Assembly: GCA_963989385.1 (NCBI GenBank)
Contig: OZ022498.1
Span: 7,075,501-7,139,500, forward strand
DNA from: Ctena decussata
Taxonomy: Eukaryota > Mollusca > Bivalvia > Lucinida > Lucinidae
Direction of reading: 5' to 3'
Length of the DNA stretch: 64,000 bases
A program made the translations under genes and the position numbers. Below are positions 11,486-64,000 of this stretch, one piece after another. Each line of letters begins with the position of its first letter. The first letter of the stretch is position 1. Below the pieces are notes generated by a model. It worked only from the letters and a program-made list of their open reading frames with translations. It searched no databases and was not told the origin of the DNA.

Positions 11486-11729
11486 ACCCTGTATGGACAG
11501 CCCCAGTTGCTGGTAGTGCCTCAGTCAGTATTGACGAGAACAGTGCCACCGGTACGACAGTAATCGAACTAGCGGCAACTGATGCCGATCAAGGCGATAC
11601 ACTGCAGTACTCTATCACGTCACCTGCAGATAGTGCTAATTTCGAAATTACAGATACGAATAAAGTCACGGTCAAAGCGGGAGCTGAACTTGACTATGAG
11701 TCACAAACATCTTATGACCTAGGTTTTAG
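11486..11729 (+). CDS. Cadherin-family protein, exon 2 (most of first cadherin repeat)
   Basis: This 244-nt exon lies between a TTTCAG acceptor and a GTAAGT donor (GT at 11730). Joined to the single base from exon 1, it reads without stops. Cadherin hallmarks are visible: SVSIDENSATGTTVIELAA (the calcium-binding Glu in the ENxxxGT context), ATDADQGDTLQYSI (the DxD element), then FEIT and AELDYESQTSYDL (the LDYE-type motif). It ends with two bases of a codon, completed by exon 3. The Glu and Asp calcium ligands expected of a functional repeat are present. With exon 3 the repeat is about 100 residues, the usual length. Homophilic or heterophilic adhesion is family knowledge; the specific subfamily cannot be told from this N-terminal piece. 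Confidence 0.88.
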
Positions 11730-12582
11730 GTAAGTTATATTATTCAGTTCTTAAATTCATTAATGCCTAGTGGACTCACCTGTCGTTTTAAATAAGATTA
11801 GTCCATTTGTCATTTAAGGCGTATCTGGTTTAGTTTATTTTTTTATACTTTGTATACCCATCTTAGTGTAGATCCTGATCAGATGCCGCGTTGCGGCGTC
11901 TGATTTAGATCTGCACTGTTTGCCAATATCCCTTTCATGGAGCATTATGCATAAATTGGTGAAAGGGAGATCACCCTGAATTGAATGGATTTGTCTTCCT
12001 TCTTAAAGCTCCTTTAAAGGTTTAAATTCCAAGTAACAACTATTTACCGCCAACAAATAGTGTTCTCTTTAGATCCCAGTCTTTCATGAGTAAGCATGAT
12101 ATGCAAACTGAATGCCAGTATACACGTATTCATACCAAATTTAATGCAACAGACGCGCGTTTCTGTATTTAACTTCTTCAGTGTTGCTAAACCCCAATAG
12201 CTTGAAAGAAAAATATGATGACAGGTCTCGGAAGGCAACGAGCATCCCAGTCCGAGCCACACTTGCGGGACACATTAGCTGCAGACACCAGGTAAGAGAC
12301 GCCTACGTATTAAACCGCGAGCGCAGGCGACCCCACCGAGCCACCTAAACCCCTGTGTCTCGAGAAAGGCGACAGAAAAGAGCATCAGACAGAGATAGAT
12401 GTCCGATGCAGCAAGAACCCGCAAAAAGCCGAAACAACTCGAAAGAATGGAAGCCAAACACCGCTAAGATTCATAAGCTATGACACGTTAGTCTTAGTTT
12501 TAGAATAATTTCGAAATTTTACCAGATGTATATCAAATTGAATAAAGAATTTAATCCCAATGCCTGAGAATCAGGGTTCGAG

Positions 12583-20140: not shown

Positions 20141-20410
20141 ATATGCCCCCGACCAGTGCCATCGCCTAATGGCGGCCGTAAAAAGTCTCCCCGCACTCAT
20201 CTATAGTGCAGGTTATATTTTCCTTTTGGTCCTTTGAGATCATGGAATATATTCTGAGAAGTCAGAAATGATCATACGTTTAGATTCATTTTCTAAACAA
20301 ATTTGAAATATTTTGGTATTTTTCGACTTATATCAGTCTTTGAGACGACTGCCATGTTAAACCTGCAAATTTACTGTTTTTTTCCTCTGGCTCATTGTAC
20401 CATATTTAAA

Positions 20411-20454
20411 GGGTCACTGATGAGGCTTGAATAGCCGAAACCGCGGTATGGCCC
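20411..20454 (+). ncRNA. Type I hammerhead self-cleaving ribozyme, copy 1
   Basis: All parts of the fold are present in order. Stem I 5' strand is GGGTCA (20411-20416), the core CTGATGA (20417-20423), stem II GGCT-TGAAT-AGCC (20424-20436) and the core GAAA (20437-20440). Stem III is the palindrome ACCGCGGT (20440-20447), the cleavage site GTA ends at A20448, and the stem I 3' strand is TGGCCC (20449-20454), which pairs fully with GGGTCA including one G-U. A stem III this short leaves almost no loop within one molecule. Palindromic stem III is known from Penelope-associated hammerheads that cleave as dimers. The predicted cut is after 20448. Confidence 0.85.
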
Positions 20455-20785
20455 AACTTCTTACTTATGAATGTTTTCTTTGCTCTTAAAGGATCTAAAC
20501 TTTTATCATTATTTACTATCACTGCAGCTGGATGTTGTGCCGTGTGGCGGCCGTAAAAAGTCTCCCCGCACTCATCTATAGTGCAGATTATATTTTCCTT
20601 TTGGTCCTTTGAGATCATGGAATATATTCTGAGAAGTCAGAAATGATCATACGTTTAGATTCATTTTCTAAACAAATTTGAAATATTTTGGTATTTTTCG
20701 ACTTATATCAGTCTTTGAGACGACTGCCATGTTAAACCTGCAAATTTACTGTTTTTTTCCTCTGGCTCCTTGTACCATATTTAAA

Positions 20786-20829
20786 GGGTCACTGATGAGG
20801 CTTGAATAGCCGAAACCGCGGTATGGCCC
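20786..20829 (+). ncRNA. Type I hammerhead self-cleaving ribozyme, copy 2
   Basis: This copy is identical over the core to copy 1, offset by 375: GGGTCA at 20786-20791, CTGATGA at 20792-20798, the stem II hairpin, GAAA, palindromic stem III, the cut after A20823 and TGGCCC to 20829. Cleavage at both sites would release a 375-nt RNA from 20449 to 20823. Confidence 0.85.
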
Positions 20830-21309
20830 AACTTCTTACTTATGAATGTTTTCTTTGCTCTTAAAGGATCTAAACTTTTATCATTATTCAACATAATACT
20901 ACACTGCAAATGTTATACGTATATAAAATTCAAAGTCCTTGACCTTGACATTTAGTAATCAGCACCATCCATATGATGTAAACTAGTATGAAATTAACCT
21001 AGTCAAGTATCATTAGACTCCATTCAAGTATATTAGATGTACAACACAAAACTATACAACAAACGGCTAAGTCCTACCCATGAGCCTAACCCTGAATCTT
21101 AGGTTGTCCTGATCAAAAGTAATGCAATAGAGATATCATGAACCAACTATATGGAATAATTATAGCCAGATCGCTTTTCGAACATGATGTACTCATATTC
21201 CGGTATAAGACGGTGAAATGTAGGTCAAGATCAGGTTTTCCCTCCAATAAGATGTGGTAGGTCTAGATCTTTGGGATTGTAAGGGAAACCCACGTCTTAT
21301 AGCACAATG

Positions 21310-26386: not shown

Positions 26387-27668
26387 ATACCGTATACACG
26401 GTAATTTTCGCGGGTTCAAATTTTCGCGGTAAAGGGTCGAAAACATAAACAAAAAATTTCGCGGTTTTTTTTATTTTCGCGGTTAGCAACATGCGCGAAA
26501 GGGAAAACTATTTCTTTTTCACTTGAGACAGTTCGTTCGTGAACCTGCGGCAGGGCCAGCGCAGGTTAATGAAAGAACTGGCTCAAGTGAAAAATACCAG
26601 CAACTACCAAAGCAAACAGAAACAAAATATATGAACTCTTTGTCTACAGAAGACACTTTGTAAGAAACTGAAAATTATTCGCGATTTTAATATTTGCGGT
26701 TTCTAAGTCACCGCGAAATACAGCGAAAAATGGAAGTAAAAAGTATGCAAAGACCAGGAACTGAAACAATCAAAATCCAAATCCAGCCCACAAACCATAG
26801 TTGGAAACAACTAAGATTACAAAAAATCAAGATACAGAAAACATATGGCCAACCGAGTGAGCAGCTTGTTCCCAAAAGGTGGCCACTCAGCAACCCAAAC
26901 CGAACCAAAAATAATAAGAACAAACATAAGGTAAAACATCACAGAAACTCTGACACCAAAAGCAGGCAACAGAGAACCACAACAGAACTACCGCCTTGGA
27001 ACGGTCAGTAGTGAATTACTGGGGTGCTTAAATCGATTTTACAGGCCCAACCTCACCCTCAGTATCTGAAGTGGTACAAAACATTTAGTTGGTTGTTCGG
27101 TTCGCATGATAACCCTCTAACTCGTCAATGAATCATCACGGTAAACACATAAATCAAATTTCAACACCATGAAGAAGCAAAGACGAGGACTCAACAGATA
27201 CAACGGGCCGTCTGACAGGTGGAGATCCCTGTCCTGCCAAACAACCCCACTGGAAATCTGAAGCAAAAGAAGGTCACCAGTTGAGCCCGGTGGACCAAGC
27301 AACAGACAAAAAGGCTCCGGTCCCAACCAACTAAAATATATAGCTTTAGGTCGGGGCCATCATAGAGTCTGACGCCCGATCCCCCGGTGTGCAATTAAAG
27401 AGTGCAGCAAAGTTATCAACCGTGATTGGGTTAATCACTAAGTATGCAGACTGTCGCATAACATTTAAATTATAGCCAATACGTTTGTGACGTATTATAA
27501 TTTTTCGGAATTGATCAGAAAAATCAGTCCTACCCTTAATCTTTTTGAATTTGTATACTAAGTCACCATAAAATTCTGGTTCCGATAGGCCTTGGTGTAA
27601 AAGAAATTTTAACCCAACATCAAATTTAATTTAATAAATACACCGCAAAAATTATCTTACATACGGTA
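26387..27668. mobile_element. TACCGTA-ended MITE split by a Penelope-like insertion
   Basis: The left end TACCGTATACACGGTAATTT followed by TCGCGGG is mirrored by CACCGCAAAAATTATC and CATACGGTA at the right. TTTCGCGGT-type blocks recur inside. The retroelement fragment at 26731-27627 sits near the right end, so the MITE is older than that insertion. Without the insert it is about 385 bp. Confidence 0.65.
26731..27627 (-). pseudogene. 5'-truncated Penelope-like retroelement, copy 1
   Basis: The minus-strand sequence matches the last 230 or so bases of the RT ORF of the copy at 49622-51240 and the whole non-coding tail. It ends at the same 3' terminus (plus-strand AGTAAAAAGTATGCAAAGAC at 26735). 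The 5' break is at about 27627, where similarity stops. The RT catalytic part is absent, so it is a dead copy. Confidence 0.75.
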
Positions 27669-29179: not shown

Positions 29180-30700
29180 CGCGCCTGTACATTGTATTTT
29201 TACCATTTTATTCAACATATTGGAATCAAAAGTAGGGCATTAAAATGACCCAAATAGGTCAAACCCTATCTATGTGAAACTCAGGGACGTTTTATTTGTT
29301 TGAGGCTGGCTTATCACGGTTATTTACAACGACGGAACTATACTGAGAAGCTTGCAGCGGTACAGTGGACTCGACAGTATCGGATCATCGACAGAAAGAA
29401 AAAAACAATGACTATTGGGTAACTCTCAGTGCAACGGCGTACTACTTATTTGGATAGCCCTACTGTGCTTGCAGTAGCTGCGGGTCGGGGTTGTTTGACT
29501 ATTTTGTTCTCTCGTCTATCTCTATTTTCTATCGTCCTCTCTGTGGGAGAAGAAGGCTCGACATAGTCTGAAATAATGTCTCAAAGAGCCAATAAACCCA
29601 AACCAAGCCAACCAACCTGATTCCCCTTCGACAGATGCAAAAGCGATGGGTCCCATGCCTGTACATTGTAATTTTATCATTTAAATCGGGCTCATTATAT
29701 CGAAAGTTAGACCAAAATAAATTTTCAAATCCGTTCTATGTGGAACTCAAGCTTGTTTTATTTGTTTAAAGTTGGCAGTGAGAACCTTGCAGCGATACCT
29801 CATGATAAAATAGTTCATGAATGTTTACCATGATACAGCAATGGGGCCTTGAAGCTTTAAAAGTTTCATGGTGTAGTTTAAACAAGAATAACAGTGCCTT
29901 GCTTACATGTATCAGTTTTAGAACAGCATGACATGCAAAATATGGTACTAGAGCCCATATGTAAAACAAGAGTTCCGCGAAACACTATGTCGCACCTGCT
30001 TTGCACCTTTACATTAAAAACTCAATTAAAGCATCATTATGTCACACATGCAAATTTGGTCAAAATCCCTTCAGTAGTTTATGAGATAGCTTGACTTGTT
30101 TGACTATTTTGTTCTCTCGTCTATCTCTATTTTCTAGCGTCCTCTCTGTGGGAGAAGAAGGCTCGACATAGTCTGAAATAATGTCTCAAAGAGCCAATAA
30201 ACACAAACCAAACCAACCAACCTGATTCCCCTTCGACAGATGCAAAAGCGGTGGGTCCCATGCCTGTACATTGTAATTTTATCATTTAAATCGGGCTCAT
30301 TATATCGAAAGTTAGACCAAAATAAATTTTCAAATCCGTTCTATGTGGAACTCAAGCTTGTTTTATTTGTTTAAAGTTGGCAGTGAGAACCTTGCAGCGA
30401 TACCTCATGATAAAATAGTTCATGAATGTTTACCATAATACAGCAATGGGGCCTTGAAGCTTTAAAAGTTTCATGGTGTAGTTTAAACAAGAATAACAGT
30501 GCCTTGCTTACATGTATCAGTTTTAGAACAGCATGACATGCAAAATAGGGTACTAGAGCCCATATGTAAAACAAGAGTTCCGCGAAACACTATGTCGCAC
30601 CTGCTTTGCACCTTTACATTAAAAACTCAATTAAAGCATCATTATGTCACACATGCAAATTTGGTCAAAATCCCTTCAGTAGTTTATGAGATAGCTTAAC
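29180..30700 (+). repeat. Exact 605-bp tandem duplication plus an older diverged unit
   Basis: 29491-30095 and 30096-30700 align end to end with about six substitutions and no indels seen, i.e. near 99% identity. Examples are GCGATGGG versus GCGGTGGG, and ATATGGTAC versus ATAGGGTAC. Both units start with the TGTTTGACTATTTTGTTCTC part of the 8164-family repeat. The stretch 29180-29490 is a much more diverged relative, with GCCTGTACATTGTA and GTTTTATTTGTTT shared. The incidental 67-codon frames are duplicated with it. Confidence 0.9.
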
Positions 30701-44319: not shown

Positions 44320-44447
44320 CGTGACAGATGGCACAACTCCCGTTGCAAGCGTTACGTTTACTGTAAATTTAAATGACGTCAACGACGTCGCCCCAGTGTT
44401 TGATCCTAACACCTACGAGAAAGACGTTCATGAAAATACGGCAGCAG
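44320..44447 (+). CDS. Cadherin-family protein, exon 3 (end of repeat 1, start of repeat 2)
   Basis: The 128-nt exon lies between TTTCTTTCAG and a GTATAT donor. The first base completes a Ser codon with the two bases left by exon 2. The frame reads VTDGTTPVASVTFTVNLND, followed by VNDVAPVFDPNTY, EKDVHENTAA. DVNDVAPVF is the classic inter-repeat calcium-binding linker (DxNDNxPxF type, with Val-Ala where Asn-Ala or Asn-Pro is more usual), and HENTAA opens the second repeat with its ENxxxGT-type Glu. It leaves one base for exon 4. The match in phase and motif order shows that no coding exon is missing in the 32.6-kb intron before it. Confidence 0.88.
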
Positions 44448-49621: not shown

Positions 49622-51240
49622 AAGTAAAAAGTATGCAAACACCAGGAACTGAAACAATCAAAATCCAAATCCAGCCCTCAAACCATAGTTGGAAACAACT
49701 AAGATTACAAATAATCAAGATACAGAGAACATATGGCCAACCGAGTGAGCAGCTTGTTCCCAAAAGGTGGCCACTCAGCAACCCAAACCGAACCAAAAAT
49801 AATAATAACATACATAAGGTAAAACATCACAGAAACTCTGACACCAAAAACAGGCAACAAAGAACCACAACAGAACTACCGCCTTGGAACGGTCAGTAAT
49901 GAATTACTGGGGGGCTTAAATCGATTTTACAGGCCCAACCTCACCCTCAGTTTCTGAAGTGGTACAAAACATTTAGTTGGTTGTTCGGTTCGCATGATAA
50001 CCCTCTAACTCGTCAATGAATCATCACGGTAAACACATAAATCAAATTTCAACACCATGAAGAAGCAAAGACGAGGACTCAACAGATACAACGGGCCGTC
50101 TGACAGGTGGAGATCCCTGTCCTGCCAAACAACCCCACTGGAAATCTGAAGCAAAAGAAGGTCACCAGTTGAGCCCCGGTGGACCAAGCAACAGACAAAA
50201 AGGCTCCGGTCCCAACCAACTAAAATATATAGCTTTAGGTCGGGGTCATCATAGAGTCTGACGACCGATCCCCCGGTGTGCAATTAAAGAGTGCAGCAAA
50301 GCTATCAACCGTGATTGGGTTAATCACTAAGCATGCAGACTGTCGCATAACATTTAAATTATAGCCAATACGTTTGTGACGTATTATTATTTTTCGGAAT
50401 TGATCAGAAAAATCAGTCCTACCCTTAATCTTTTTGAATTTGTATACTAAGTCACCATAAAATTCTGGTTCCGATAGGCCTTGGTGTAAAAGAAATTTTA
50501 ATCCGACATCAAATTTTGAAACCAATTCATGGTGTCTGCGATAGAATTTAGAAAAAGCCTTTCTAAGCTTATGATACCGATAGCCCTGTTGAAGAAGTTT
50601 AGCAGTTAAACATTTATTACGAGCATTAAAGTCATCTACATGACTACACACTCTAGCAAATCTTATAAGTAGAGAAATATACACTCCATAAGAGGGACGA
50701 CGTGGAACGTCACCATCCAAAAATGGAAAATTAACTATATCAAAGTCAAAGTCATCACGTTTATCATAAATTTTAGAAGATACAAAACCGTTAGAAATAG
50801 ATAGATGTAAATCCAAAAAGGGGGCCTCGGTATCTGAAGTATTAGCTTTATTCAATTTAAGTTCAGGTGGGTAAATTTGGTTAACCATGCTTTCAAAATA
50901 AGGATTATCAATATTCAGAAGATCGTCTAAATATCTAGAGGTTGAGTTAAATGCCTCAATGATATCAGCTTGATTATCAACAGAAAGAGAAGTCATGAAA
51001 TCTCTTTCATAACAAAATAAAAACAAATCGGCCACAAGGGGAGCACAATTTGTACCCATCGGAATACCAACAATTTGTCTGTATAACTTATTACCAAATC
51101 TGATGTAAATATTATCTAAGAGATATGATAAGGCGTCACATACATTCCGACATGACCAAAGACTATATCCTCTATATATTTTACGGTCAGTAGAAGTGAA
51201 AAACGCTTTCTTATATAGAATCTGTCTGTCGTACATATGG
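49622..51240 (-). mobile_element. Penelope-like retroelement, copy 4 (longest, 5'-truncated)
   Basis: On the minus strand it runs from about 51240 through an RT ORF (51236-50235) and a tail of about 610 bp to the common 3' end near 49624. The 5' end stops at sequence belonging to the host array element, so it is truncated, and RT motifs upstream of the palm are missing. No GIY-YIG endonuclease is visible in the surviving part. Copies at 26731, 30987 and 42990 are shorter versions of the same family. Confidence 0.7.
50235..51236 (-). pseudogene. Reverse transcriptase fragment, Penelope-like type
   Basis: The 333-codon open frame has RT palm and thumb sequence. LYRQIVGIPMGTNCAPLVAD (residues 52-70) is the GxPxG-type motif B region with the catalytic-loop signature, and RYLDDLLNID (101-110) is motif C with both Asp residues. 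FLDLHLSI and the YDKRDDFDF segment follow, then a basic C-terminus rich in Lys and Arg. Motif A and the fingers, which should precede it, are lost with the 5' truncation, so it cannot be a complete polymerase even though the remaining frame is intact. The first Met is probably not the native start. PLE identity is from the motif wording and tail structure; another non-LTR-like lineage is possible. Confidence 0.7.
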
Positions 51241-51941
51241 ATGTCCCTGGGGTTAAGTTCACAGGATACTCAGGTGAGCGATCCAGGGCCATCATGGCAC
51301 CATTGTGTATTTAACATGAGCGACATAATATGCGAAATGTTTTTTGGCTTAAAGCGATTTGGACCTAAATATCTAGATTCAACTCGACCAGGGCTATAGG
51401 CCAACAGTCAAATGCAACTGAAAGTAGAAAATGAAAGAGACAGTAAGCTACTTACATCAAAATCCCGGATGTATTTATATTGGCCAATGAAATATAGGCC
51501 AATACTAAGGTTATACGGGTAAGGGCGGAAAAGCCAAAGGGTAATAGAAAGCTGACAAACAATGACAATACCAGTAATAAATCAACCAGAAGCAGTTCCT
51601 TTGAACGGTCATTAATGGGAGGACGGGGCTTAATCACTTTTATGTGATCACAAACCCTCGCCTTTGATTAGAGTATTCCATTTTCACACAGGTGACGCCA
51701 GTTATATGTTTCCAAGAAGCAGTTTTAAGCTATATTGTCTGTTATATATTTTACACCTCTGGCATACGCAGTTATCCCAAGTATGTTTGCGAATTTTCCA
51801 TTTTTTTTTCTGTCCATTTTGTCAGTCTGTTCTTTTGTTCATTCATTCGTGTGTCCATCCGTCCGTTTGAGTTGTCATTTAAAGTTTTGGGCCAAGTGCG
51901 TCTGTATTTATTTATTTTATGTACTGGTCGGAGATATACAT

Positions 51942-56745: not shown

Positions 56746-56810
56746 CGATTACAGATATACAGATATAAATATATGATTTAGGGGCCAAAAGCTGACTAAT
56801 TGATGTAAAA

Positions 56811-58871
56811 ATGTCGTTAAGTCATTTAAAATCAAACAGGACACGATACAAAAACATTCTTGACCGTGAACTTACGGCAGGACAAGGTCTTCTGACAGAT
56901 GAACAGGAAAAGGGGGACCCAAAGGACTTCGCCCTAAGAATTGAATCTTGCATTAACAGACTGACAACATTCTGCGATAAGTTGGAAATCACGAATGAAA
57001 AGATTTCACTGGCTGTTGCAGGAACAGACCAAGCGGAAAATATGGAAGAATTATTGACGGAAGACGGCTTATTTATGACCTCAGTTGTAGACTGCAGAGA
57101 TCAACTGGTTACCTTAGGTAAATCCCTAATTGATGACAAAACACCATCGTCAAATTCCTCTATGATAACAATCACAGAAGAAAGGAGTCGGATGGAACAA
57201 TTACAATTGCAGATGCAGCAAATGTTACTAGATCAGCAAATGATATTGATGCAACAAACCCAAACATGCCAAAGACAGCAGAATTCTAACGGAACGGTAA
57301 AATTACCAAAGCTTGACATACCTACATTTAATGGAGACAAGATGAAATGGACCGAGTTTTGGGACACATTTGAGACAACAATTGATAGAAATGACACTTT
57401 ATCCGGCGTAGAGAAATTAAAATATCTCAACAGCAAGCTTACCGGTGATGCCAAACAAGCAGTTTCAGGTATACTCCTGTCAAATGAAAATTATAAAGTT
57501 GCAACAGACCTACTTAGAGAAAGGTTTGGAAATCAACAAACAGTTATTAATTCTCACTATGCAGAACTAATCAATATAACCTCTGCCAACAACAACACAC
57601 GAAGTCTGAGATCTCTGTACGATCATATAGAAAAGAATTTAAGGAGCTTGGAAGCACTGAAACAAGATATTAACCAGGACATTTTTATTTCCATTGTTAC
57701 ATCTAAAATGCCAAGAGATGTCCTTATACAACTTGAATTACAAAAGGGCTCAAAGTGCAACTGGTCAGTTAGTAAGCTTAGAGATTTGTTCAATGAATAC
57801 ATATCTGCTAGAGAAAGAGCCGAACAGCAAGTAACAACAGAAAATAGGTATACACTTCCAAGAACCCCACGACCAACAACAGAGGCGTTGGTCTCGGGAT
57901 ATAAGTCACAAAGGTTACCTAGTTCACAGCAGCCAAGAACAGCATGTCAATACTGTAGTGGTGTACACTGGAGTGATGACTGTCCAGCATATCCCACACT
58001 TGAAGGAAGAAAGCAACGCATGAAAGGAAACTGTTTCATTTGCTTGAAACGAGATCATAGAACGAATGAATGTAACTTTACTCGATCATGTTATTACTGT
58101 GGCAAGTCGAATATTCACCACAGAAGTCTATGTCCCAAAAGATTTGGAGCAGTAAATGAGTCTGCGCATTTAGCTGAGGAACTAGCAGAACCAGATGCTG
58201 AAGGCAGCACAGAAACCGAGAACGTTCTAATTTCATCAGGAGAAATGGTGCTCATGCAAACAGCACAGACCACAATCAAGAATCCAAATGACGGAATACA
58301 AGAAACCGGTCGCATGCTATTCGATTCAGGAAGTCAAAGGACATACATAACCGAAAGTTTAGCAAGAAAACTAAATCTGAAATTTGGTGAAATGAATGAA
58401 ATTACTCTTCTCACTTTTGGATCAGAAAAGCCTAAAATTCATAAAACTCCCTCAACGGTTTTAGATATAGAGCTGAGAGATGGTAATGTTTTAAAAATAA
58501 CCGCTAATGTTATACCAAGTATAACCGGCTCCATCCAGAGGCGTCCATTTAACACGAGCTGTCTTAAGAACTGGGAGTATCTTTGGAAAGAAAATGCACT
58601 GGCAGATACTCTGCCTAGCGAAAGAGAAAGTACGACAATAGATCTGTTAATAGGTAATGACTATTATCTTGATCTCATCTTGCCACAAAAGATAGAAATT
58701 CAGTCAGGTCTGTATATGCTCAGTTCAAAACTTGGATGGATACTGACTGGAAGAACAGCAGACGTAGTAGATGAAACAGTAGAACAAAACATGCTAGTAT
58801 TCACTTGTGGTACAGACATTCAGAGAGAAACAAATTTATTCTCAAAAGTGGACAAATCTCTGCCTGTTTAA
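56811..58871 (+). CDS. BEL/Pao Gag and aspartic protease region
   Basis: This 686-codon frame starts 65 nt after the primer-binding site. The N-terminal half is helical and Gln-rich (QLQLQMQQ near residue 130), followed by the conserved Gag segment with LPKLDIPTFNGD and WTEFWDTF that is typical of this group. Three Cys/His zinc knuckles start at residues 379 (CQYC), 408 (CFIC) and 427 (CYYC), for nucleic-acid binding. The protease active site is LFDSGSQRTYI (Asp 505 in the DSG motif). The frame ends at TAA 58869-58871. The same frame continues downstream with RT-linker sequence, so the stop divides protease from RT. It is either a mutation or a readthrough site; I favour mutation because a second lesion exists. 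Confidence 0.9.
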   Translation: MSLSHLKSNRTRYKNILDRELTAGQGLLTDEQEKGDPKDFALRIESCINRLTTFCDKLEITNEKISLAVAGTDQAENMEELLTEDGLFMTSVVDCRDQLVTLGKSLIDDKTPSSNSSMITITEERSRMEQLQLQMQQMLLDQQMILMQQTQTCQRQQNSNGTVKLPKLDIPTFNGDKMKWTEFWDTFETTIDRNDTLSGVEKLKYLNSKLTGDAKQAVSGILLSNENYKVATDLLRERFGNQQTVINSHYAELINITSANNNTRSLRSLYDHIEKNLRSLEALKQDINQDIFISIVTSKMPRDVLIQLELQKGSKCNWSVSKLRDLFNEYISARERAEQQVTTENRYTLPRTPRPTTEALVSGYKSQRLPSSQQPRTACQYCSGVHWSDDCPAYPTLEGRKQRMKGNCFICLKRDHRTNECNFTRSCYYCGKSNIHHRSLCPKRFGAVNESAHLAEELAEPDAEGSTETENVLISSGEMVLMQTAQTTIKNPNDGIQETGRMLFDSGSQRTYITESLARKLNLKFGEMNEITLLTFGSEKPKIHKTPSTVLDIELRDGNVLKITANVIPSITGSIQRRPFNTSCLKNWEYLWKENALADTLPSERESTTIDLLIGNDYYLDLILPQKIEIQSGLYMLSSKLGWILTGRTADVVDETVEQNMLVFTCGTDIQRETNLFSKVDKSLPV

Positions 58872-59855
58872 CCAGACTTAGAGGACTTCTGGCGCCTAGA
58901 GTCAATAGGTATACAAGATACACCAACAGATTCAAATTCTAAGGAAGACAAAATATTAAAGAAATTCAATGAGACATTGCAATACAAAAATGGAAGGTAC
59001 AGTGTTTCTTGGCCTTGGAGACATGACAGATCAGACTTACCAGATAACCGTGCAATGGCAATAGGGAGGCTAAAATCATTGATACACAAACTGAAGACTA
59101 ATCCTGAACTTGTGAAACAATATGGAGACATTATAGATGATCAGCTTAAACAGGGAATCATTGAAAGAGTGTTTTATGATCCAAAACAGTCTACAAATCA
59201 CTATATTCCACACCATGCTGTAATAAATCCTACAAAGACAACCACAAAAGTGAGAATAGTATATGACGCATCGGCAAAGACAAAGAGAGAAAATAAAAGT
59301 CTAAATGAATGCTTATACAGAGGGCCCGTCATGCTGCAAGACTTAACTGGAATTTTATTACGCTTTCGTTTAAACAGAATTGCGTTAGTCGCTGACATCG
59401 AGAAGGCCTTTTTACAGGTGGGTCTCACAGAAAAATCTAGAGATGTCACAAGATTTGTCTGGCTGAAAAACAAAGGAAGACTATGTCTTGAAAACAACAT
59501 TCAGGAATACCGATTTTGTAGAGTTCCTTTTGGAATAATTTCAAGTCCTTTCCTACTAGCCGCCACTCTAGATTACCATCTGAAGACATTCAACAGTAAA
59601 ACAGCAGAGAAGATCAGAGAAAATATTTATGTTGATAATGTCATAACTGGAAGTCCGTCTCTTGAAAATGCATTAACATTCTACAGTGAAGCAAAACAGA
59701 TATTTAGTAAGGCTGGAATGAACTTGCGGGACTGGGCATCTAATTGCCAGGAGGTGCGTAATAGGCTACAAGAGCAAGACAAGTCACACACGGACAGAAT
59801 GAAAATTCTAGGTCTCTCGTGGGTAGTTACAAATGATGAATGTCTATCAATGTAA
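58872..59855 (+). pseudogene. BEL/Pao reverse transcriptase, N-terminal part
   Basis: It is in the same frame as the upstream Gag-protease but separated from it by the stop at 58869. Open sequence starts directly after the stop; the first Met is at 58977. Numbering from that Met, TKVRIVYDASAK is near 90, motif A is LVADIEKAFLQV (Asp 140), motif B is CRVPFGIISSPF, and motif C is YVDN (Asp 220, Asn 221) where YVDD is the general form. YVDN may be a normal variant in some BEL/Pao lineages. The frame stops at 59853-59855, before RNase H, because the continuation is in the minus-one frame. No slippery heptamer is evident at the overlap, so an indel is more likely than programmed frameshifting. Confidence 0.85.
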
Positions 59856-62380
59856 GCCTCACAAGTGATACGCAGTCAGATGTAACCAAAAGAAGAGTAT
59901 TACAACATATTGCATCGGCCTTTGACCCCCTTGGCTTATTTAGTCCCGTGATACTGCAAGGTAAAATTTTTCTAAAATCATTATGGAATCAAAACGTTTC
60001 ATGGGATGAAAAGTTATCGCCACAAAATATCTCAAAATGGAACGATATACAGAAAGAGCTACAAATGCTTCCACGCTCAACATTCCCAAGATATATTGGA
60101 TTTCCCAAGGAAGAAAAACGCAAATATCAGTTGTTAGCCTTTTGCGATGCATCTAAACATGCTTATGCTGCTACAGTTTATCTGCGTCAAGAGTGTGGAT
60201 CAATGTGTAGATCGGATCTAATTTTTTCAAAGACAAGACTAACACCAAATAAAGACATCAGCATTCCAAGATTAGAATTACTAGCCGCCATGATTGGAAA
60301 AAGATGTTTAAAGTTTGTAGAGTCAGAAATAAAATTAGAAATAACCCAAAGACATATGTGGTTGGACTCTCAATGCGTACTGTTCTGGATAGATACCAAC
60401 AAATCGCTGAGCACCTTTGTAGAAAATAGGGTGAAAGAAATCAAAGCACAAAACAACATTAGCTTTCACTATATTTCATCAAAAGAAAATCCAGCTGACA
60501 TTGCAAGTAGAGGTGTTTCAACTTCGGATCTTCAAAACAACTGTCTGTGGTGGAAAGGTCCTGGCTGGCTTATACAACCAATGAACAATTGGCCAGTCTG
60601 GAAATATGATAAAGAGACTAAAACTTTGCTATCAGAAGCAGAAACGGAATGTAGGAAAACAAACATAATGTACGAGGCAAAGCTCGTTGCTGGGGAGGGT
60701 CCTACCAGAAACAACAGAATAAGTAAAACAGTGGACAGCCCATTTGGAATGGACATAACAAGATTTTCTTCATTGACTAAACTTTTGAGAGTAACGGCCT
60801 TAGCAGCAAAGTTTATTTCAAAACTAAAGAAAGAAAGAAATGGTCCAATTGAAGCTTCGGAGTTGCTTAAAGCTGAGGAGAGATGGATATCATACAGTCA
60901 AAAGAAACACTACGGTGACATTCTTGAGTCAATCAGGAAAGGAAAGGTAAAAGGTCATAAGAACCACCTTGGTTTATATCTCGCTGAACAGGGTTTACTC
61001 AGGTGTGGTGGCAGATTAGGGAATGCTGACATAAGTGAAGGAGCTAGACATCCACTGCTGCTGCCAAAAAGTGACAAATTCACAGACTTGACAGTAGAAA
61101 ACTACCACAAAAAAGCACTGCATGCAGGAACATCGCAAACTTTAGGACTAGTGAGGCACAGATATTGGATACCTCATGGACGTTCAGTGGTTAAGAGAGT
61201 TATACAAAGTTGTGCTATTTGCCGTCGTCATGAAGGTGGCCCCTATAAGATGCCACTGATGCCACCATTACCAAACAAACGTGTAACAGAATCAGTTCCA
61301 TTTACTTACACTGGAGTAGATTATTTCGGACCTTTGTTTATCAAGATTAAGTCAGAAATTCAGAAGGTTTGGGTGTGCTTATTCACTTGCTTAGTTACAA
61401 GAGCAGTCCATCTTGAACTCATACAGAATATGTCCACCGAACAGTTCATCTTAGGTTTCAGAAGATTCTTAGCAAGACATGGTAAGCCCAAAGAAATCAT
61501 TTCAGATAATGCACCACAATTTAAAGTAGCTTCGGAAACATTTGATCGATTATGGGGACAGATATTGACACACGAAGACGTAATGTCATACGCTGCAAAT
61601 GAAGGCATAAAATGGAAATTCATTGTTGAGCTTGCCCCATGGATGGGCGGATTCTATGAACGATTGGTAGGACTAGTAAAGAGAACACTGAGAAAAGCTA
61701 TTGGAAGAGCAAGCTTGACAAATGAGCAACTTTTAACAATATTAAAAGAAGCAGAAGCAGTTGTTAACTCTAGACCTTTAATTTATGTTGGAGATGATAT
61801 TCAGTCTAACATAACTTTGACCCCAGCTCATTTTCTAACACTTAACCCAGATATAGGAATACCAGACATTGACAACAATGAAGCTGACGACTATAGTCCA
61901 AATAAGAATGCAGCAGAAAAGCTGCTAGATACTTGGAAAAAAGGACAAAAACTTTTAGAGAGATTTTGGCAGATATGGAGGAATGATTACCTTTTAAGCC
62001 TAAGAGAGAGAACACAGTCAAAGCTCAAAGAAACTCGCGTACGATCATCATTTCCCGCTCGAATCGGTGACATAGTACTCATCAGAGATGACTTGCCAAG
62101 AGGAAATTGGAGACTGGGTAGAATTCAAGAACTGATTCAAAGTGAGGACAGTGAAGTTCGCTCAGCAAAGATTTTACTACCTTCAGGAAAACTGTTAGGA
62201 CGTCCGCTTAATTTGTTATATCCGATTGAATGTCCAGAAAAGGAAAATTCTAATGACACAGATAAAAATGCGAGAGACAGTTTAAAGGAATCTGCACAAG
62301 ATAACCAACAAACAGAAAAACGACCGAGGCGAAAAGCAGCAGTAAGAGCTCTTGAAAAAATTCAGGAGCAATCTGAATGA
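59840..62380 (+). pseudogene. BEL/Pao RNase H, integrase and C-terminal domain
   Basis: The frame overlaps the previous one by 16 nt in the minus-one register, so the Met at 59840 is unlikely to be a native start. Early residues contain FDPLGLFSPVILQGK, the usual link after RT. RNase H acidic residues are visible (LAFCDASKHAYAA with Asp 103, SIPRLELLAAM, MWLDSQ). The integrase zinc domain has His 428, His 440, Cys 458 and Cys 461 (CAIC). The catalytic triad is Asp 494 (GVDYFGP), Asp 556 (ISDNAPQF) and Glu 607 (GGFYERLVG). The C-terminal domain with RIGDIVLIRDD and GNWRLGRI ends in a charged, Gln/Lys-rich tail. All catalytic residues are kept, consistent with recent loss of function. Confidence 0.88.
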
Positions 62381-62911: not shown

Positions 62912-63544
62912 ATTATCAGCTCGGCGATTTTTGGAAGAACATTTGAAAGTTTCCACTCTACAATGCACCTCTCTACGAAAACCATTTTGGGGAGGCTTAA
63001 AATTAGACGTTGTAAAGGTGTGTGGATGCATTTCCAAACATCGTTGAAATGGCCATTTACGGTCAGGTTTCTTGAAAATCCTCACTGTTGTACTCAGTTT
63101 CTAAACAATTGTCATTAAAACCGATAACAACCCCTAATTTCTTGTTGAAGAGACCACGTACCTAAAGGCCAAGTGTAGGCCTCCAGAGGCCTGAAACCCA
63201 AAATACAACAGCTGCTTGACTTACACAGTAAATATTTGACGGAATGGTTGCCATTTATGGATTGAATGCTATTTTTCAAGCCGATCTATTTTGAGGCTAG
63301 AAATAGCCATTTAACATGAAAAAAGCAATGAAAATATGGCGCATCTAGCGTCTTCCACACTTTCCAGCATTTGGTACATACAGAAAACACCCAAAAATCA
63401 GAAACACATTTAAATAGTTTATATCTAGAGATGAAATCTACAGCGTATAACGATATTGTTTTGGTTTATGGTTGTAATATTTGCCAAGTATTGAAGATCG
63501 TAAAAAATGTCAAATTTAACATACCTTGACAAGACTTCACTGCG

Positions 63545-64000
63545 GCTGGTCTTGTACCGTGTAGCGACAGTAAAACGTCTCCCCGTACATCATACAGAGT
63601 GCAGATAATACTTATATTTAGCCTTTGAGATCAGATGATATGTTCTGAAAATCAGTAATTTTAGATTGATTTGGACTCATATACCAGATCATCGTGTTTG
63701 TATTGTATTCATTGGACACTGTTTCATATTAATTTAGCCTTTGAGATCAGATGATAGGTTCTGAGAAATCAGTAATTTTAGATTGATTTGGACTCATATA
63801 CCAGATCACCGTGTTTGTATTGTATTCATTGGACACTGTTTCATATTAATCAGTCTTTGAATCGACTGTCCTATTAAAATTAAGAAATTGCAGTATAGTT
63901 TTCCCTGGCCTTTGTCGCCAGATCATGTCAGGGTCGCTGAAGAAGTTTGAATAGCCGAAACGTCAAAGTATGACCCATGTTCCGTCTTTTGAATGTGTTC
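63545..64000 (+). mobile_element. Hammerhead-bearing repeat, diverged copy 3, cut by the window edge
   Basis: GTACCGTGTAGCGACAGTAA, then ACGTCTCCCCGTAC, aligns with the start of the units at 20171 and 20546. An internal 117-bp segment is duplicated in tandem (63617-63733 and 63734-63851, shared words GATTTGGACTCATATACCAG and CATTGGACACTGTTTCATAT). The ribozyme lies at 63931-63976. Further tandem units may lie past 64000. Confidence 0.7.
63931..63976 (+). ncRNA. Hammerhead ribozyme-like sequence, probably impaired
   Basis: Stem I is GGGTCG / TGACCC, the core CTGAAGA (position 7 may vary in hammerheads) and GAAA are present, and the cleavage triplet GTA ends at 63970. Stem II is AGTT-TGAAT-AGCC, where the core-closing pair is A-C instead of the conserved G-C. 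Stem III is only AC / GT around a six-base loop and is not palindromic. Homologous to the pair at 20411 and 20786, but the two stem defects suggest weak or no activity. Confidence 0.55.

Follow-up and report, generated by a model that had tools for sequence, protein, structure and literature searches.

Retrozyme arrays in the bivalve Ctena decussata: a common 3' end, scattered 5' ends and a palindromic hammerhead helix

A long cadherin intron of Ctena decussata contains two head-to-tail units, each with a type I hammerhead ribozyme, which probably are a non-autonomous retrozyme of the non-LTR type, inserted as a dimer and copied from a circle by an autonomous element's enzyme. The element is a metazoan non-LTR retrozyme, i.e., of a known kind. 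What we observe is a family of dispersed arrays with fixed 3' ends and variable 5' ends, a conserved ribozyme and palindromes in one of its helices. The value of this family lies in the genomic record of copying that it keeps and in the conserved palindrome.

Results

The insertion and its host gene

We analysed a stretch of 64 kb, hereafter the window. The first retrozyme unit spans 20170–20544 (+; 375 bp), position 20170 being the 5' end of the insertion, and the second spans 20545–20888 (+; 344 bp) and closes on the fixed 3' terminus TTTATCATTATT. The units follow each other with a period of 375 bp and differ at 2 positions over the 344 bp common to both (99.4% identity), in agreement with the near-identical tandem units at this spacing in the original prediction; 31 bp (20514–20544) occur once, in unit 1. 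The insertion had been placed at 20171–20889, which was right as to its existence and off by one base in its coordinates. The unit has a GC content of 37%. The insertion is free of stop-to-stop frames of at least 110 aa, also of ones that overlap it in part; the longest of at least 50 aa are one of 76 aa inside it and one of 96 aa crossing its 5' edge.

The flanking exons, at 11486–11729 (+; donor GTAAGT) and 44320–44447 (+; acceptor TTTCAG), join in frame into a single cadherin domain (PF00028, E 2.6e-14, profile positions 2–90 of 93, versus 1.1e-11 for the frame of the first exon alone). The insertion therefore sits in sense within the intron at 11730–44319 (+; 32.6 kb); a location in a cadherin intron had been proposed.

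The hammerheads of the two units (20411–20454 and 20786–20829, both +) are identical in sequence, with every core letter intact. They read GGGTCA-CTGATGA-GGCT-TGAAT-AGCC-GAAA-CCGCGG-TA-TGGCCC, i.e., stem I GGGTCA/TGGCCC (six pairs, one of them G-U), core CTGATGA/GAAA, a 4-bp stem II GGCT/AGCC, loop II TGAAT and the cleavage site GUA. Stem I is the open helix, which makes this a type I hammerhead and not the type III of plant LTR retrozymes. When both strands of the window were scanned for the core together with its stems, exactly two matches appeared, both in the units, against a mean of 0.03 such motifs in 100 dinucleotide shuffles; the prediction of a complete type I hammerhead per unit, with 4-bp stem II and 6-bp stem I, was thus confirmed. 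The palindromic helix III, ACCGCGGT, occupies 20440–20447 and 20815–20822 (+), and the helix consists of ACCGCGGU alone, which looks too short to form a good hairpin by itself. The predicted cuts after A 20448 and A 20823 agree with those proposed before, and would release a circle-competent monomer of 375 nt (20449–20823, +). In folding calculations, a single copy of the ribozyme prefers a non-catalytic structure (-14.4 versus -10.7 kcal/mol for the catalytic one), and in a context of 71 nt it folds no better than shuffled sequences (z -1.0). The predicted 375-nt circle folds at -83.8 kcal/mol (z -1.8; 7 of 200 shuffles as low), with a paired fraction of 0.59 versus 0.58 in shuffles.

The window holds further repeats. 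A diverged relative of about one unit lies at 63537–64000 (+; 67–74% identity) and extends beyond the window to about 64018; it has an internal duplication of 117 bp (63616–63850) and a decayed hammerhead at 63929–63978. The same cadherin intron contains a second, antisense hammerhead-like motif at 12144–12189 (-), with six stem I pairs (GCAACA/TGTTGC), core CTGAAGA...GAAA, a palindromic ACGCGCGT and a weak stem II; the phage models described below score it at 33.4 and 34.2 bits. RT-like ORF fragments without Pfam match were found at 50235–51269 (-) and 27346–27630 (-). We call the former RT-like on account of its motifs and of one listed relative with PF00078; a search of solved structures with it returned nothing useful. 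It has at least 7998 relatives, two of them in MAGs named Candidatus Thiodiazotropha, a group of lucinid-clam symbionts. Frames of a Bel/Pao-type retrotransposon occupy 56796–62380 (+), with Peptidase_A17 and integrase domains in 59840–62380, and two stretches 605 bp apart at about 29522–30699 have nearly identical short frames on both strands.

A dispersed family of arrays

The ribozyme-core pattern has 8750 exact matches in the 1.66-Gb genome and none when reversed, and a relative was present in 3 of 20 ten-kilobase stretches sampled blindly. The ribozymes fall into at least three subfamilies. When the genome was searched with the window unit, the best 40 of 1167 candidate places were all arrays, of 1.9–10.8 units, on 16 contigs and with rows 95–100% identical (150 of 158 matches listed); being the best-scoring places, they are biased to young copies. 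The second subfamily, with a unit of about 380 bp, is about 73–76% identical to that of the window, and the best 40 of its 3067 candidate places were scored. Array lengths in the genome range from 1.3 to 10.8 units. The 22 arrays that we read, of up to 10.8 units and with flanks of 150–300 bp, consist of the unit alone, head to tail. The family shows several hallmarks of metazoan non-LTR retrozymes: dispersed multicopy tandem units of 150–450 bp with a type I hammerhead, GC content below 50% and no coding region. These dispersed arrays, with a hammerhead in almost every unit, support the earlier reading as a retrozyme-like tandem repeat.

Whole ribozymes are identical in 91 of 95 cases in 23 sequenced arrays. 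Four diverged copies have kept the ribozyme better than the rest of the unit, with identities (gaps omitted) of 39/44 versus 243/320, 36/44 versus 189/264, 41/44 versus 66/91 and 26/28 versus 156/210. Lower variability of the ribozyme is not evident within the young window subfamily (6 variants in its 44 columns versus 57 in the other 331). At two places (L020:3180–3400 and L274), a retrozyme 3' junction adjoins the second half of another retrozyme's hammerhead, which may reflect either an internal deletion or a new copy that landed in the hammerhead of one already present.

Array ends and target sites

The arrays differ in where they begin and agree in where they end. In the window subfamily, 40 of 40 arrays have their 3' end at unit positions 340–354, and 31 at 343–347 (150 of 158 matches listed). 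The 23 sequenced arrays (the window's and 22 others) all end at 342–348: at TTTATCATTATT, at most two bases short of it, or at most four matching bases past it, with one mismatch within it in L267. The end in the window was taken as 344, a longer alignment beyond it being attributed to chance matches. The second subfamily behaves alike. Its sequenced arrays end at 348–350 in eight of nine cases and at 336 in the ninth; among ten places fetched for it, L276 was excluded as a broken copy and L277 because it belongs to the window subfamily (it ends at 346). This subfamily has 39 listed rows that start at position 1 and stop short of 379; 33 of them end at 348–357, which is the homologous place, one ends at 336, and five, odd composite copies, end at 130 or 176.

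The 5' ends of the 23 sequenced arrays are scattered (Rayleigh p 0.23). An apparent preference for a start at unit position 1 (16 of 40 arrays) was rejected because position 1 is the edge of the query; one of these 16 is the window's array, and seven that were read start at 367, 328, 352, 353, 321, 356 and 348. Fixed 3' ends and scattered 5' ends would be expected if target-primed copying began at a single internal point and often broke off early. The predicted cut at 20823 and the fixed end, at unit position 344, are 65 nt apart, the end lying downstream, which indicates that copying does not start at the ribozyme's own 3' end.

No poly(A) tail was found at the array junctions examined. Of the 23 arrays, one (L247) has a candidate target-site duplication, which is 14 bp long, contains a single mismatch and lies 15 nt away from the junction; its score is 10, versus at most 9 in 506 pairings of unrelated flanks. 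Two arrays, L252 and L266, are inserted at an identical bond of a host tandem repeat but differ in their 5' ends. The repeat copy next to L252 represents the empty site, and comparison with it gives a deletion of 1–5 bp, the count depending on how the Ts at the junction are assigned.

Variants within and between arrays

The 105 units of the 23 arrays contain 63 variants, of which 54 occur in one unit, four in two arrays and two in some units of one array. The other three are each confined to one array, where all covered units have them: 193A in L249 (6/6 units), 141T in L247 (3/3) and 234T in the window (2/2), all absent from the other arrays of the 23. The chance that all cells of a variant fall in one array is 0 in 200,000 draws for six cells, 0.3% for three and 5% for two. 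Array-wide variants favour templates of one unit, of which a circle is an example; a possible alternative is a multimeric template read from a source array whose units were uniform. The argument for single-template copying is built on these three variants, and differences within and between arrays are close over the 23 arrays (0.39% versus 0.46%; 0.12% versus 0.39% in the first 13 arrays only). Since 54 of the 63 variants occur in single units, change must also go on in arrays once they are inserted, and array length could be determined by unequal crossing-over.

A palindromic helix III and a putative dimer

Of 40 hand-picked genomic copies, five were dropped and the 35 with at least five stem I pairs were kept. 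Helix III is perfectly palindromic in 26 of them (ACTACGTAGT in 16, ACTTCGAAGT in five and ACCGCGGT in five), and in the other nine it is one base away from one of these three palindromes. When two strands are folded together, the minimum is a dimeric hammerhead (-39.3 kcal/mol, versus 2 x -14.4 for separate strands). This holds for all three kinds of helix III (the third in an idealised form), and the single strand prefers the non-catalytic fold. Two subfamilies differ at two positions of the would-be tetraloop and keep the palindrome. Such a change, needless for a lone hairpin, is suggestive, as a single event. Dimers have been reported for the hammerheads of newt, axolotl and Penelope-like elements (PLEs), so the ribozyme likely acts as one too. 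Neither this palindrome nor the fixed array end away from the cut figures in the original prediction.

Covariance models and the hammerheads of phages

The Rfam search called for in the original prediction returned no hammerhead, and models built from phages matched both copies. Rfam gave no hammerhead in the whole window at the gathering threshold, nor at E up to 10 in the 901 bases around the units. With RF00008, nothing was found over the genome and 14 control genomes were equally silent; copies at locus L021 reach 18.4–18.6 bits, with a cut-off of 48.5. This absence of a match poses no problem for the hammerhead call. At E up to 1, Rfam also gave nothing at five of six phage hammerhead sites, each on its own contig, and a sub-threshold match at the sixth, so the lack of a covariance hit, which had been named among the grounds to abandon the prediction, would have misfired if judged by Rfam. 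Such ribozymes may be present even where Rfam reports none.

The phage hammerheads come from viral contigs (IMG/VR, loci L022–L245) scanned for the hammerhead core with the window's stem II. Exactly six stem I pairs were counted in 120 of the 121 phage matches listed with a scorable site, the site being picked by best pairing. To lessen the circularity, a second pattern was run without stem I or stem II letters; what it still fixed was the core, T-A-T in loop II and a portion of helix III. It gave at least 100 distinct phage matches; in the 100 listed, stem I always has six pairs with an A on both sides, stem II has four pairs in 99, and its most frequent sequence is GGCT/AGCC, that of the window (23/100).

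Two covariance models were built from these matches. Model R2 was made from 40 phage hammerheads, a random draw from the 77 with a stem II other than the window's; in a search of 267 kb its top two matches are the ribozymes of the two units (52 bits, E about 1e-11), with independence from the window only in stems I and II. Covariation in its 40 sequences is strong, with a score of 0.73 that none of 500 shuffles reached (0.155 in shuffles), and there are 31 pair types versus 27.1 (11 of 500 as high). Model R1, from phage hammerheads only, also finds both copies (55.1 bits); it carries less weight because its 27 matches have the window's own stem II and sites chosen by pairing.

The phage class is defined by the core, a 6-bp stem I flanked by A on each side, a 4-bp stem II and a loop II of the form UNANU, and the window ribozyme has this shape throughout. 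In the 35 hand-picked genomic copies, the 5' A is present in 35 and the 3' A in 33. The two groups differ in helix III, which in phages is a hairpin, mostly of 4–6 bp with a loop of its own, and in the window is a palindrome; among the phage matches listed, 0 of 91 distinct ones have a palindromic helix III. They also differ in setting: an ORF of at least 40 aa starts at most 60 nt downstream of the cut in 98 of 112 distinct phage hammerheads, among the matches listed. The likeness between phages and the window is likely a convergence on the same contacts. One phage contig (L103:5175–5264, -) also has a sub-threshold match to the Pistol ribozyme (30.4 bits, cut-off 34.5), about 500 bp from its hammerhead.

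Discussion

A model for the copying of the arrays

From the above we infer transcription, cleavage, a circle, its ligation and a helper enzyme. A multimeric transcript would be made from the promoter of the retrozyme or of its host gene. Adjacent hammerheads would pair with each other by means of their palindromic helix III, with cuts after 20448 and 20823, and the resulting 375-nt RNA would be closed by a host ligase. An enzyme supplied by a Penelope-like or LINE-like autonomous element would then begin to copy the circle at unit position 344, often continuing for more than one turn and stopping anywhere. The outcome would be head-to-tail arrays with a constant 3' end and variable 5' ends, usually without target duplication. 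On balance, we lean towards reading the arrays as fossils of rolling-circle, target-primed reverse transcription, with one fixed start conserved between subfamilies and one to ten turns, and with a ribozyme kept as a dimer by a changing palindrome.

A multimeric linear read-through transcript of the same element, primed at an internal site, would likewise yield a fixed 3' end and variable 5' ends, and initiation of reverse transcription at an internal site of unprocessed RNA is described in vitro for a Penelope-like element of Anolis (PMC11167929). We nevertheless regard a linear template as rather unlikely: with 91 of 95 ribozymes intact, long multimers should cut themselves, and the private array-wide variants fit one-unit templates better. 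The nature of the element is another matter. PLEs have tandem pseudo-LTRs with type I hammerheads (PMC11167929, PMC7761336), and the RT-like fragment at 50235–51269 (-) lies in the same window, so that the two units might be the pseudo-LTRs of an autonomous PLE that lost its ORF. This is improbable, as the 22 arrays read, with flanks of 150–300 bp, are the unit head to tail, with no long frame in or between units, and as a Pfam search with the RT-like fragment gave no match at E up to 0.01. Moreover, PLE hammerheads are described as minimal, without helix III or loop-loop contacts (PMC7761336), whereas that of the window has the signature of stem I, loop II and flanking A's.

It is very improbable that the arrays are plain satellite DNA that recombination has dispersed and lengthened, the ribozyme being a bystander. 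Their tandem structure would fit, and variant 144G of L263, common to adjacent units 4 and 5, points to local duplication or conversion; against this stand the 40 places on 16 contigs with one common 3' end, and the insertions L252 and L266, with their shared bond in the host repeat, different 5' ends and identifiable empty site. Given the sense orientation within the intron and the precedent of a conserved hammerhead in a RECK intron (PMC3088659), one could also think of a domesticated ribozyme that processes the cadherin intron. We give this almost no credence: nothing links the unit to the cadherin gene, and its 95–100% identity to the other copies listed makes the insertion look young.

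For the retrozyme model, the sequence by itself thus yields a defined start site, a template of circle or multimer type and a target footprint. This opens both the helper enzyme and the start to a direct search.

Comparison with known systems

The nearest known counterparts include the metazoan non-LTR retrozymes described by Cervera & de la Pena (2020), especially those of Mytilus galloprovincialis, with about 5000 ribozyme copies in two families and circular RNA detected in mussel tissues by northern blot (PMC7229834). By their description, these resemble the present element in having a type I hammerhead, repeats of 350–390 bp, low GC and no LTR (PMC7229834). Retrozymes of similar unit size and with northern-blot circles are thus already in print, and we do not claim the fixed 3' end as new. 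The Discussion of that paper proposes re-entry as tandem cDNA from a primed circle, with the start left unmapped (PMC7229834). A word search of its main text found no mention of truncation, boundaries or target site. Target-site duplications of metazoan retrozymes, if present, exceed 4 bp.

Plant LTR retrozymes are also non-autonomous, with hammerhead repeats and circular RNA (PMC4918200), but they have a type III hammerhead, an LTR, PBS/PPT and a 4-bp target-site duplication, with about 700 bp between ribozymes (PMC7229834, PMC7761336). The hammerheads in PLE pseudo-LTRs are type I and tandem, with dimeric cleavage reported (cited in PMC7761336); the window element differs from PLEs in having no ORF in or between units and in its stem I/loop II contact signature. 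A parallel for helix III is found in amphibians. Most invertebrate retrozymes are described as cleaving efficiently as single hammerheads, whereas the window's helix III is a short palindrome as in amphibians (PMC7229834). The retrozymes of newt and axolotl (the newt satellite repeats) have a weak helix III with a palindromic tetraloop, the dimer being favoured, in units that, likened here by description, measure 330–350 bp versus 375 bp in Ctena decussata (PMC7229834).
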